From positions 1 through 25,684 of IMG/VR virus record IMGVR_UViG_3300007734_000515: a stretch of 25,684 nt of DNA; one strand, written 5' to 3'. Below, in pieces: positions 11,328 to 19,402 of the stretch. Below the pieces are notes generated by a model that saw nothing but the letters and a program-made list of their open reading frames with translations, did no database searches and was not told the DNA's origin. Source of the stretch: a virus. The position numbers and the translations under genes are program-made. Numbering within the stretch: the first letter of the stretch is position 1; each line of letters opens with the position of its first letter.

Positions 11328-11354
11328 AGAAAAACCCCGAGGGTTACTCGGGGT
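11326..11354 (-). terminator. Rho-independent terminator for the minus-strand replication operon
   Basis: The arms ACCCCGAG (11334-11341) and CTCGGGGT (11347-11354) form a perfect 8-bp GC-rich stem around a 5-base loop. Read on the minus strand, the hairpin is followed by TTTTCTTT (11333-11326). On the plus strand it is followed by AAAAGGAGG, which is no U-tract. So the site should stop leftward transcription exactly at the end of the giant virion gene, limiting antisense RNA to it. It may still act weakly on rightward transcripts. Confidence 0.8.
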
Positions 11355-11390
11355 AAAAGGAGGAGAGAGCAACTAAAGCCAAGGAGATTA

Positions 11391-11411
11391 GTGCTAGGCG
11401 AACTCTAGCAC
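11391..11411 (+). terminator. Second hairpin in the convergent junction, possible weak plus-strand terminator
   Basis: GTGCTAG and CTAGCAC form a 7-bp stem with a 7-base loop. It is followed on the plus strand by GAAATCAATTTAT, which has only a broken T-run. It lies between the last plus-strand gene and the stop of the first minus-strand gene. A terminator or transcript-stabilising hairpin for the virion mRNA is plausible but weakly supported. Confidence 0.35.
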
Positions 11412-16556: not shown

Positions 16557-18107
16557 CTAGTCGGATAAAATTTCTTTGTAGAGGTCAATTATTTTGTTAT
16601 GAAAATCGACTTTGTTATGCAGCATGGAGTACATGTTGCGCTCCGCTCCACTGCCCTGTAGGTGCACCACGGTAGTCGGGTTCTTCTGCCCTGCCCTGTG
16701 GACACGGGCGTTGCACTGGAGGTAGGTCTCCACTGACATGACGGGGCTCCAGTACACGATAGTGTTTGCGGCATGTAGGGTCACGCCATGCGATGCGGCC
16801 TGTGGTTGGATGACCAGCACTTGCGGGATGTCAGTCGTTTGGAATCGGTCAAAGATGTCTGTGCGCTTACCCACGGGCACATCACCATGAATCACCGCTG
16901 TTGAGTACCCATGCTTGCGTAGGTCTTCGGCTACCAACTCAATGCCGTGCCGATAGGGCACGAACACCAACACCTTGTGGCTGGCTTCCTCAATGACTTC
17001 CCGCAGGACTGCAAGCCTATTGCTGGCATCGAACTGCACGGTCTCACCCGAGTCGGAATAGACTGCCCCTGCGGACAACTGCAATAGCTTGTTCAGGCTG
17101 GCTGCGGCGTTGACTGTAGTTATCTCTTCACCAGCAGCTTGCACGATTAAACGTCGGCGGAGCAACTGGTAGTATTTCTCTTGCTGTGCAGTAAGTGGTA
17201 CGTTGCGCGTTACGTAGGTCATCTCTGGGAGGTCTAAACATTCCTCCTTCGTAAACCTAATGGCAGGTTGTAAGGCACGGTGAACAACAACTTGCGCTTC
17301 GGGTTTGGGAACCCATTTGAACTGTGTCACCTTGTTCATCACAGCATCCTTAAACGCCCCCGCATTTTTTGGTACACCATCAGGGTTGACCAGCTTGGCG
17401 ATGCCGTATGCGTCTGTGGGTGATTGGGATGCGGGTGTTCCTGTGAGCAACCATAGCCATGTCTGTGGGGTAAGTATTTTATGTAACACCTTCCAACGTC
17501 TTGTAGAGGGGTTCTTGTATGCGTTAGCTTCGTCAACCACTATCAAGTCAAACCCACCCTTGCGGATGGTGTCTGCCACAATCTCCACACCGTCATAGTT
17601 GATGGCGACATACTCAGCATCCCCGTTAATGATGTCCTCACGCTTCGATGCTTTGCCGTATGCAATATCCACCCTACGGTGCATAGCAAACTTGAACAAG
17701 TCATTGCGCCAAGCCGAGTCCATGATGGATAGGGGGCAAATGATAAGCACCCGCTTGATGAACCCAAGGGACATCAGGTAGTCGGATGCCCAAATTACGC
17801 TGGCAGTTTTTCCTGTGCCTTGCTCGTTGAAACAGAACGCCCGCCGATGCAGGGTTAGGAATGACGATGTAGTCTTTTGATGGTCGAACGGTTTGTACAA
17901 ACCGGGCCATTTGTACGTAGCATTGATTGGTGATGGTACGTTAATGCGTAGGTTCTTTAGTACCGTTGCTTCTTCTAGTCCCCAATGCACCAGCACTTCG
18001 GAGAACCCATCCCCTACGTTGACCACCTTACTTTTCGGTATGACCGTTGTGATGCGGTCAGGGTTGCGCACCTTCAATAAGATGGCTCTGTTATCAATAA
18101 TTTCCAC
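16557..18107 (-). CDS. SNF2-like superfamily 2 DNA helicase/ATPase (516 aa)
   Basis: All main SF2 motifs are present: a Q-motif-like FDHQ (74-77), Walker A GTGKT (97-101), DEAN (192-195), LTGTP (221-225), a C-terminal RecA fold with VFVPYR (381-386), QAASHGVTLHAAN (436-448) and QCNARVHRAGQ (464-474) with R468 and R471 as candidate arginine fingers. The VHRAGQ form marks the SNF2/RapA branch, which moves along double-stranded DNA. I place the start at GTG 18107, with AGGAG at 18117-18113 and 5-base spacing. The open frame continues upstream to an ATG at 18218, but that stretch lies in the folded RNA region and encodes an odd basic peptide. Likely role: remodelling DNA or aiding replication/recombination. 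Confidence 0.9.
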   Translation of the reverse strand: MEIIDNRAILLKVRNPDRITTVIPKSKVVNVGDGFSEVLVHWGLEEATVLKNLRINVPSPINATYKWPGLYKPFDHQKTTSSFLTLHRRAFCFNEQGTGKTASVIWASDYLMSLGFIKRVLIICPLSIMDSAWRNDLFKFAMHRRVDIAYGKASKREDIINGDAEYVAINYDGVEIVADTIRKGGFDLIVVDEANAYKNPSTRRWKVLHKILTPQTWLWLLTGTPASQSPTDAYGIAKLVNPDGVPKNAGAFKDAVMNKVTQFKWVPKPEAQVVVHRALQPAIRFTKEECLDLPEMTYVTRNVPLTAQQEKYYQLLRRRLIVQAAGEEITTVNAAASLNKLLQLSAGAVYSDSGETVQFDASNRLAVLREVIEEASHKVLVFVPYRHGIELVAEDLRKHGYSTAVIHGDVPVGKRTDIFDRFQTTDIPQVLVIQPQAASHGVTLHAANTIVYWSPVMSVETYLQCNARVHRAGQKNPTTVVHLQGSGAERNMYSMLHNKVDFHNKIIDLYKEILSD

Positions 18108-18112
18108 ATGGA

Positions 18113-18117
18113 CTCCT
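18113..18117 (-). promoter_or_regulatory. Shine-Dalgarno that sets the helicase start at GTG 18107
   Basis: AGGAG on the minus strand lies five bases before GTG 18107-18105. The hairpin at 18129-18149 ends 11 bases upstream of it, so folding of the leader could affect access to this site. Confidence 0.65.
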
Positions 18118-18128
18118 ATAGGTAAGCA

Positions 18129-18417
18129 CTCCAAACATGGTGTTCGGAGGGTAGGTTGTTGGCTGTTAGTTCCCCTTTTCCGCTTTCGCGTGCCTTCACG
18201 GCTCCTCATTTGAACCACGCCTGTCCAGTGGTCACCAACACGGCTGGTGACTATTCCAAATAGTACCTAGGAACAATCACCATGCGTATTAGTCCTCGTC
18301 TTTCCGAGGTGTCCGTTAACTCGCGGCTGGAACCTTGCCGTGTTAACTGATGCAGTTATCTCATGCAGGGGATAGCACCCCTCGTCTCACTCACACTTGC
18401 ACCTAACTTCGTGAGAC
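18129..18417 (-). ncRNA. Candidate structured RNA or long folded leader upstream of the helicase
   Basis: The 351 bases between two genes (18108-18458) hold a series of hairpins: 18129-18149 (8 bp), 18181-18190 (CGC-GAAA-GCG), 18213-18233 (6 bp), 18246-18281 (12 bp, 12-base loop), 18294-18309 (5 bp), 18324-18340 (CGGC/GCCG), 18344-18358 (6 bp, 3-base loop), 18367-18382 (5 bp), and 18384-18417 (GTCTCAC/GTGAGAC). Four pairs in three of the helices are G-U on the minus strand but A-C mismatches on the plus strand, so the minus-strand RNA is the folding species. A GNRA tetraloop also appears only on that strand. I cannot match it to a known class: no clear group I or II intron core, hammerhead or tRNA. 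It may be a free RNA or a cis-regulatory leader. Confidence 0.55.
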
Positions 18418-18423
18418 TGTCTA

Positions 18424-18447
18424 CGAAACCGAAACCGAAACTGAAAC
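18424..18447. repeat. Four tandem hexamers (C/T)GAAAC
   Basis: CGAAAC occurs three times in a row, followed by TGAAAC, and then degenerates to CAAAAACC. On the minus strand this reads as GTTTC repeats just after the stop of the HNH-like gene and just before the folded RNA region. It is non-coding. It might be a protein-binding site, part of an origin, or simple slippage. Confidence 0.7.
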
Positions 18448-18458
18448 CAAAAACCAAA

Positions 18459-18719
18459 TTACTTCATTGACTTATCGGCATTCCTTGGGAACGACCGATT
18501 CTTTGATGCGGACTCAAGCCTCACACCGTTCTTGTTTGAACCGCCTTTGGACAGGGCTTTGACATGGGCAACATCCTTACCCGTGCGGTCAACGCCTTTC
18601 TTGTCCAACGCTCGTCTAGCACGTTGCCGCTCCATGCGGGCCTCATGTGCACCATCTCGTTTCTTTTCCAACTCGTACTCCCGCTTAATATTGCGGTCTT
18701 CCTTGTTCTTGTACGCCAT
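18459..18719 (-). CDS. Small HNH-like phage protein (86 aa)
   Basis: The first half is highly charged and helical (Lys/Glu/Arg-rich). The second half has DVAHVKALSKGGSNKNGVR and SASKNRSFPR, which match the core of small HNH-type nuclease folds: D-x-x-H, then GG-(S/T)-N and a closing N-R-S. The Cys pairs that flank many HNH domains are absent, so activity is uncertain. The start is the second ATG of ATGATG at 18719, because AAGGAG is six bases upstream; it overlaps the nuclease stop as TGATG. The folded non-coding region follows immediately. Confidence 0.65.
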   Translation of the reverse strand: MAYKNKEDRNIKREYELEKKRDGAHEARMERQRARRALDKKGVDRTGKDVAHVKALSKGGSNKNGVRLESASKNRSFPRNADKSMK

Positions 18720-19402
18720 CATTCACTCCTTCCATTATGGGGGCAAATCAGCACAGGGCAATACGCCTTGCATGTAAAGTTCTTCTTCGGGTTGAATATT
18801 TCGCTCTCGTAAGCCGCATCCCGTTGTACCAATATGTTATCCAGTTCCGTAAAGATATGCATCGCAGTGGGAGCATCATATTCCGCTTTGACCAAATCTT
18901 CAGCCACCACGAACAGCAGGGCAGCTTTGATATGCACGACAGTCGGAAAGTGCAGGAACACACACGCCGCCATTAACGCCAACTGCTTGGTGTCCGCATA
19001 CCTACTGGACTTGCCCGTCTTGTAGTCGATGATACGCGCCATTTTCCCATCGGGGCTGATGATTACCAAGTCGGCAATGCCCCTGTACCAAACCTTGGGG
19101 TCGTCGAACGCGCAAGGGAGCAACCGCCCATCCACACGTTGTAGCCCCATTTCAAGTTCACAGTACTTTTGACCGGGGTACGTGTTCAGCTTATCCAACA
19201 ACGGGTTTAGGTATGAGTACTTCTCAGGTAGGGGGACGCCATCCCGTATGTAGTATTCGGCGGCGGCATGCACATCTGTGCCGTACATCATGGCGGTACT
19301 CGCGGGTTCTGAAATGTCCTTGGCTACCCGCATGTGGTAGTACTTCTTGGGACATTGGTCGAACAGCGTTATGCCCGAGTAACTCCATGATGAGGGCTTC
19401 AT
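18719..19402 (-). CDS. Cas4/RecB-like PD-(D/E)XK nuclease with probable Fe-S cluster (227 aa)
   Basis: The catalytic residues of the RecB/Cas4 nuclease family are in order: H45 in GTDVHAAAEYYI, D111 in YRGIADLVI, D126 and K128 in IIDYKTGK, and Q140 in the following helix. C17 (QCPKKYYH) together with C211, C215 and C220 (CKAYCPVLIC) gives the split four-cysteine pattern that binds an iron-sulphur cluster in Cas4 and AddB-type nucleases. The start at 19402 overlaps the previous stop by 4 nt (ATGA); the open frame extends 25 residues further but without support. Likely a 5' or 3' exonuclease in phage recombination, or host DNA breakdown. No CRISPR genes are nearby, so it is not an adaptation Cas4. 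Confidence 0.85.
   Translation of the reverse strand: MKPSSWSYSGITLFDQCPKKYYHMRVAKDISEPASTAMMYGTDVHAAAEYYIRDGVPLPEKYSYLNPLLDKLNTYPGQKYCELEMGLQRVDGRLLPCAFDDPKVWYRGIADLVIISPDGKMARIIDYKTGKSSRYADTKQLALMAACVFLHFPTVVHIKAALLFVVAEDLVKAEYDAPTAMHIFTELDNILVQRDAAYESEIFNPKKNFTCKAYCPVLICPHNGRSE

Follow-up and report, generated by a model that had tools for sequence, protein, structure and literature searches.

A candidate phage helicase leader combining a covarying RNA pseudoknot with a cassette of exchangeable RNA payloads

The minus strand between a conserved 87-aa ORF and an SNF2-type helicase gene in IMG/VR virus record IMGVR_UViG_3300007734_000515 (positions 1 to 25,684, the 25,684-nt stretch analyzed here and termed the window) is a composite of two conserved RNAs, a pseudoknotted element (X) and a two-hairpin cassette (H1-H2), joined to each other (Table 1). 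Our preferred interpretation, which we consider probable, is that this region forms the 5′ leader of the mRNA for the helicase, consisting of X, most likely acting in cis, and an H1-H2 module acquired from a separate phage repertoire. We infer co-transcription with the helicase gene, a cis role for X, and any role of the cassette: minus-strand transcription would place the region at the head of the helicase mRNA, X would act on helicase expression through leader elongation, stability, or translation, and H1-H2 would be an acquired module whose two constant stems (sockets) hold interchangeable RNA payloads. The first-pass annotation had proposed an unclassified structured RNA on the minus strand, possibly a stable phage RNA or a leader for the helicase; the composite nature of the region and the membership of the second element in a large family of shuffled modules were absent from it.

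Table 1. Features of the region upstream of the helicase gene and its flanks, in window coordinates
Feature	Position	Strand	Basis or remark
87-aa ORF, conserved, upstream of X	18459..18722	(-)	phrog_4590, 6.8e-8, category unknown function
Region studied	18108-18458	(-)	Between 87-aa ORF (end 18459) and helicase start
Element X, pseudoknotted RNA before helicase gene	18294..18417	(-)	Model R1 and covariation
X hairpin P1, GUCUCAC (18417-18411) / GUGAGAC (18390-18384), 20-nt loop	18384..18417	(-)	Complementary stems in relatives
X pseudoknot 5′ strand GGUGCA, inside P1 loop	18398..18403	(-)	Partner 18354-18349
X hairpin P2, AGGGG / CCCCU	18367..18382	(-)	Sequence and minimum-energy fold
X pseudoknot 3′ strand UGCAUC	18349..18354	(-)	Pairing in protein-selected relatives
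X helix P3, GUUAAC / GUUAAC, inner CGGC / GCCG	18315..18347	(-)	Covariation
X hairpin P4, CCUCG-GAAAGA-CGAGG	18294..18309	(-)	Sequence; relatives have two loop types
H1-H2 cassette, between X and hairpin before ribosome-binding site	18158..18290 (about)	(-)	Presence/absence in relatives
H1, conserved hairpin socket with short payload hairpin (UUCC...GGAA)	18237..18290	(-)	Model R2, covariation
H2, stem GUUGG / CCAAC (socket) holding payload Z	18158..18239	(-)	Five Z variants; three-base overlap with H1 3′ arm
Hairpin P5, CUCCGAACA-CCA-UGUUUGGAG, directly before ribosome-binding site	18129..18149	(-)	Sequence and fold; relatives with similar hairpins
Helicase ribosome-binding site AGGAG	18113..18117	(-)	Sequence
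SNF2-type helicase gene, start GTG 18107-18105	16557..18107	(-)	Pfam SNF2-rel_dom 5.6e-22, Helicase_C 6.4e-17

The helicase start was set by comparison with homologues, and the position of the start codon is kept in the related locus L011. The 87-aa ORF gave no match in Pfam; it has at least about 600 relatives in IMG/VR and none in the isolate-phage collection. The minimum free energy of the minus strand (18458-18108) was -126.7 kcal/mol, compared with a mean of -104.1 for its dinucleotide shuffles (100 per strand; z = -4.55; 0/100 shuffles as good), and that of the plus strand (18108-18458) was -94.5, compared with -93.1 (z = -0.28; 36/100 shuffles as good). The strand bias that had been deduced earlier from pairs that are G-U on the minus strand and A-C on the plus strand is therefore real, because only the minus strand folds beyond chance. 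Two structures described at the same time also proved correct: the 12-bp helix lies exactly as placed, with minus-strand GGUGAUUGUUCC (18281-18270) pairing with GGAAUAGUCACC (18257-18246), two G-U pairs included, and the GAAA tetraloop is present as CGC-GAAA-GCG (18190-18181). The minimum-energy fold also paired the 5′ end, rich in GGUUUC, with the H2 domain; this pairing was dropped because L011 is without those repeats and the relatives give no support for it.

Element X consists, in order, of hairpin P1, hairpin P2, the 3′ pseudoknot strand, helix P3, and hairpin P4. Because the 5′ pairing strand sits in the loop of P1, X is a pseudoknot, which the minimum-energy fold of the region cannot represent. 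A covariance model (R1) constructed from 31 sequences, with the window excluded, matched window positions 18296-18416 at an E-value of 3.7e-13. For the pseudoknot, upstream regions were chosen by protein only, the motif was located by its invariant bases, and the pairs were read afterwards; under strict rules the motif was located in 41 of 103 upstream regions, and 32 non-redundant rows were read. All 192 pairs in these relatives (six pairs each) were standard, and compensatory changes occurred at four of the six positions. Pairs 3 to 6 appeared as U-A or C-G, G-C or A-U, U-A, C-G, or U-G, and G-C or A-U, respectively; at pair 6 the window carries A-U, the rarer form, and most relatives carry G-C.

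The helices around the pseudoknot are likewise conserved at the RNA level. The two sides of P1 are mutually complementary, yet their sequences are unrelated between relatives: the mean stem was 6.3 bp, compared with 4.2 bp when the flanks were swapped, and stems of at least six pairs formed in 73% versus 18%. In the outer helix of P3, 98.9% of cells were paired, and both-side changes were present at all five pairs counted. For the whole structure in 56 distinct rows, 89.6% of cells were paired compared with 74.5% after shuffling, and the covariation score was 0.489 compared with 0.244, with 0/500 shuffles as high and slid versions scoring 0.015-0.109; these shuffles ignore the relatedness of the rows, so that the figures are not probabilities. 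Alignment of P4 was poor (66%), since its two loop types had been merged into a single alignment. The proposal of an unclassified structured RNA was thereby upheld: covariation is present among the homologues, where the first-pass annotation had asked for it, the helices are conserved in them, the segment does not read as protein-coding in the homologues that carry X, and an Rfam search, which had also been suggested, matched no family to the region.

To place X in its genomic context, we collected 80 loci through the 87-aa protein and 80 through the helicase. In many of them, the 87-aa ORF and the helicase gene are separated by roughly 150-240 nt containing a common motif, AAGGYRYGAGTR ... 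AACCRYRYCAGTYA; other relatives have a gene between the two or nearly no gap. Scanning IMG/VR for this motif gave at least 120 matching stretches, and the helicase gene lay directly downstream of X in 92 of 101 distinct matches among those listed, although this count, like the others from pattern-selected or hand-picked loci, is not a measure of prevalence. X thus occupies a position before the helicase gene in most cases, as the earlier leader reading predicts, and that reading gained support accordingly. Since the position is conserved in the same orientation, X would be a cis-acting leader element. No terminator-like structure or start-site-sequestering switch was found in X; therefore, no specific cis mechanism is supported.

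Most of the evidence comes from uncultured phage contigs. Promoter-like and tRNA-like features beyond the named tool matches were read by eye. Some relatives of X have a promoter apparently directly upstream, and none was seen in roughly 40 nt before P1 of the window. X also occurs away from the helicase gene, preceding H1-H2 units and a tRNA-Met-like gene in L349, L301, L410, and L361, and additionally a gene resembling the terminase small subunit in L349; in L168, H1-H2 and a promoter-like sequence come after X. Judging from the L301/L349 group and L168, the function of X may not be tied to the helicase gene, and its conserved position is compatible with a role in trans as well. In Xanthomonas phage Xp15 (L418), the genes are arranged similarly (polymerase, exonuclease, and two small ORFs ahead of the helicase gene), and no X was identified in it by eye.

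The cassette is a separable part of the region. Between P4 and P5, the window is about 134 bases longer than L002, L003, L004, L012, and L014. L011 carries a similar insert of about 165 bases at the site where L012 has a few bases, and the flanks on either side are 94-97% identical between these two loci; the cassette is thus present or absent between close relatives. H1 is built of constant arms, ACACGCAUGGGGAUUG / CAGUCCCCAGCCGUGUUGG, with a variable apical payload, and H2 of a stem, GUUGG(UG) / (CA)CCAAC, carrying a second payload. A covariance model of H1 (R2), with the window outside its seed, matched positions 18232-18294 at an E-value of 2.7e-12. In 40 variants without the search word, the H1 stems keep pairing through both-side changes (e.g. 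GGUG/CACC in the window, GAAG/CUUC in L214, and GGGU/ACCC in L178), and a conserved internal loop is flanked on either side by covarying stems. The payload in H2 of the window, Z, is conserved, and two compensatory pairs among its five variants weakly support a structure. Z also occurs alone after promoter-like sequences.

Presence and absence between close relatives, together with the imperfect inverted repeat formed by H1, could point to a DNA-level element with palindromes, such as an origin or a recombination site. We regard this explanation as very improbable and largely refuted: the strand bias led us to reject an origin or DNA palindrome, as one strand only folds beyond chance, a G-U pair occurs in the H1 copies on just one of the strands (mostly as U-G), and the pseudoknot of X covaries as RNA.

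The H1-H2 units form a broad repertoire. A 19-base H1 word was found in at least 120 stretches of IMG/VR, with no genuine site in 84,980 bacterial and archaeal genomes; the single bacterial match, in Victivallaceae, lies inside a 440-aa ORF and was read as chance. Units are single or tandem, as a rule with one cluster per record, and nine large records from the helicase lineage gave no R2 match. Among 69 genes scanned downstream of arrays, 22 matched a terminase small-subunit family and several more a large-subunit family; about 40-50% of the genes scanned were thus terminase genes. Payload lengths range from about 20 to 130 nt, and payloads recur between phages. In 101 complete units, the payloads fell into 60 H1 and 59 H2 clusters; 20 of the 24 recurrent H1 clusters met at least two H2 clusters, and 15 of the 18 recurrent H2 clusters met at least two H1 clusters. 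A few payloads occur in both sockets (one cluster under a stricter rule). The window itself combines an H1 payload common to L301 and L410 with an H2 payload common to L011 and L165. Payloads are therefore reshuffled between units.

Several arrays (L046, L056, L174, L200, and L287) are followed by a recurrent unit resembling a small RNA, which has a promoter-like sequence and ends in a terminator of the type GCCGTTAC...GTAACGGCTTTTTT. At L174:782-899, downstream of an H1-H2 array, Rfam Betaproteobacteria-1 matched with 93.3 bits, which suggests a betaproteobacterial host for L174.

This exchange bears on the main rival for the cassettes, namely a trans-acting decoy or regulatory RNA that is carried in the helicase leader and cut out of it, with payloads that differ with host or rival factors. 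Such a role would account for payload families that are many and exchangeable and for the occurrence of Z alone; moreover, some payloads are tRNA-like (L255:6178-6281 in H2, RF00005, 44.9 bits; L218:6055-6153 in H1, an ARAGORN match with an odd anticodon), and some units adjoin tRNA genes. We nevertheless consider it unlikely for the region as a whole, as X is bound to one gene neighbourhood and no processing signal or target was identified.

A broader proposal, which we advance tentatively and stop short of calling probable, is a general combinatorial phage RNA system in which a constant H1-H2 scaffold exchanges many unrelated RNA domains like gene cassettes at the RNA level; lambdoid phages of enterobacteria would have a related arrangement on another scaffold, and the window would then represent one such cassette that landed in a conserved helicase-leader pseudoknot. 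One recurrent payload, M_d (GGTGAATGCGCAGGCTGATGCGC ... GCCGGAGATCAGCACCGGCC), stands on a different scaffold; it is carried, mostly without annotation, by 145 isolate phage records and 1034 of 5426 complete E. coli genomes, and most of the E. coli matches extend over no more than the first 40-50 bases of the module. The location of M_d differs between phages: it lies before the lysis genes in PY54 and downstream of the repressor in mEp460. In Salmonella phage STGO-35-1, a weak match to tmRNA_permuted (L421:860-1000; 29.4 of 47 bits) lies upstream of an M_d module and contains a tag-like frame, ANDDVVLMAA, read by eye and followed by two stops; a phage tmRNA-like RNA is possible at this site.

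If these interpretations are correct, a covariation-supported pseudoknot class would be added to phage biology, along with a widespread modular RNA system for which we found no described counterpart in the open-access literature or Rfam 15. Swappable leader RNA domains would then provide phages with a new route to exchange regulatory or counter-defence functions, and the presence of M_d-type modules in isolate phages and E. coli would make function testable at once in laboratory strains.

Another explanation of the leader-like positions is suggested by analogy with HK022 putRNA, the reference case for an RNA acting on the RNA polymerase elongation complex, which is about 70 nt long, has two stem-loops, acts without proteins, and lies downstream of early promoters (PMC9378689). 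Nascent X and, separately, H1-H2 might similarly bind the elongation complex and aid readthrough of long operons. This put-like antitermination is a serious rival because X and H1-H2 both favour leader positions, the H1-H2 arrays often upstream of terminase genes; the module on the other scaffold lies between the late antitermination gene and the holin gene in Klebsiella phage 6, and the internal loop of H1 between covarying stems would also fit. The high variability of the payloads would be left unexplained, however, and M_d had no sequence match to the HK022 stretch compared, which may not include put, its exact sequence not having been located therein. We judge a put-like effect to have a minor chance of being correct. 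HK022 putRNA binds the β′ zinc-binding domain and suppresses termination. Like it, X and H1-H2 would be phage leader RNAs built of stem-loops, whereas X is a pseudoknot with several helices, differs in stem number, and showed no sequence relation to putRNA in the comparison made.

The sole match of Rfam 15 to the window was PsrR1, with 26 bits against a gathering score of 42, at 11330-11408, outside the region; no known aptamer matched, and the tRNA finder detected no tRNA in the window. A BLAST comparison of the region with isolate phages and plasmids yielded nothing useful. In the X and array loci scanned, neither X nor H1 scored above the cut-off of any Rfam family, and tRNA was the only family to do so at some payloads or neighbours. 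GOLLD, ROOL, and OLE, which are also large and structured and belong to bacteria and their phages, had no Rfam match at any of these loci. STnc100 and the Pas prophage sRNAs, which are discrete base-pairing sRNAs (PMC13192938), resemble the RNAs described here as structured RNAs in phage genomes; an STnc100 match in Aeromonas phage ST4 (L423:643-751; 39.1 of 47 bits) falls short of the Rfam cut-off and is located upstream of an H1-H2-like (M_d) module, not within it.

TIGR arrays are, like H1-H2, phage-borne and alternate two constant segments with variable segments between them; their spacers are short guides, 8-12 nt long in the stem-loop arrays, and they have box C/D motifs and a partner protein with a Nop domain (PMC12045711). 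They were rejected as a counterpart, because H1-H2 payloads are far longer than such guides and no Nop protein accompanies them: the Nop domain (PF01798) was found in 0 of 16 array records, some of which are fragments, and the control was positive in four archaea. A further architectural parallel to consider for X may be the Pistol ribozyme, whose six-pair pseudoknot arises from pairing between a hairpin loop and a junction downstream of it. X had no Rfam ribozyme match and differs from Pistol in that a complete second hairpin precedes the 3′ pseudoknot strand.
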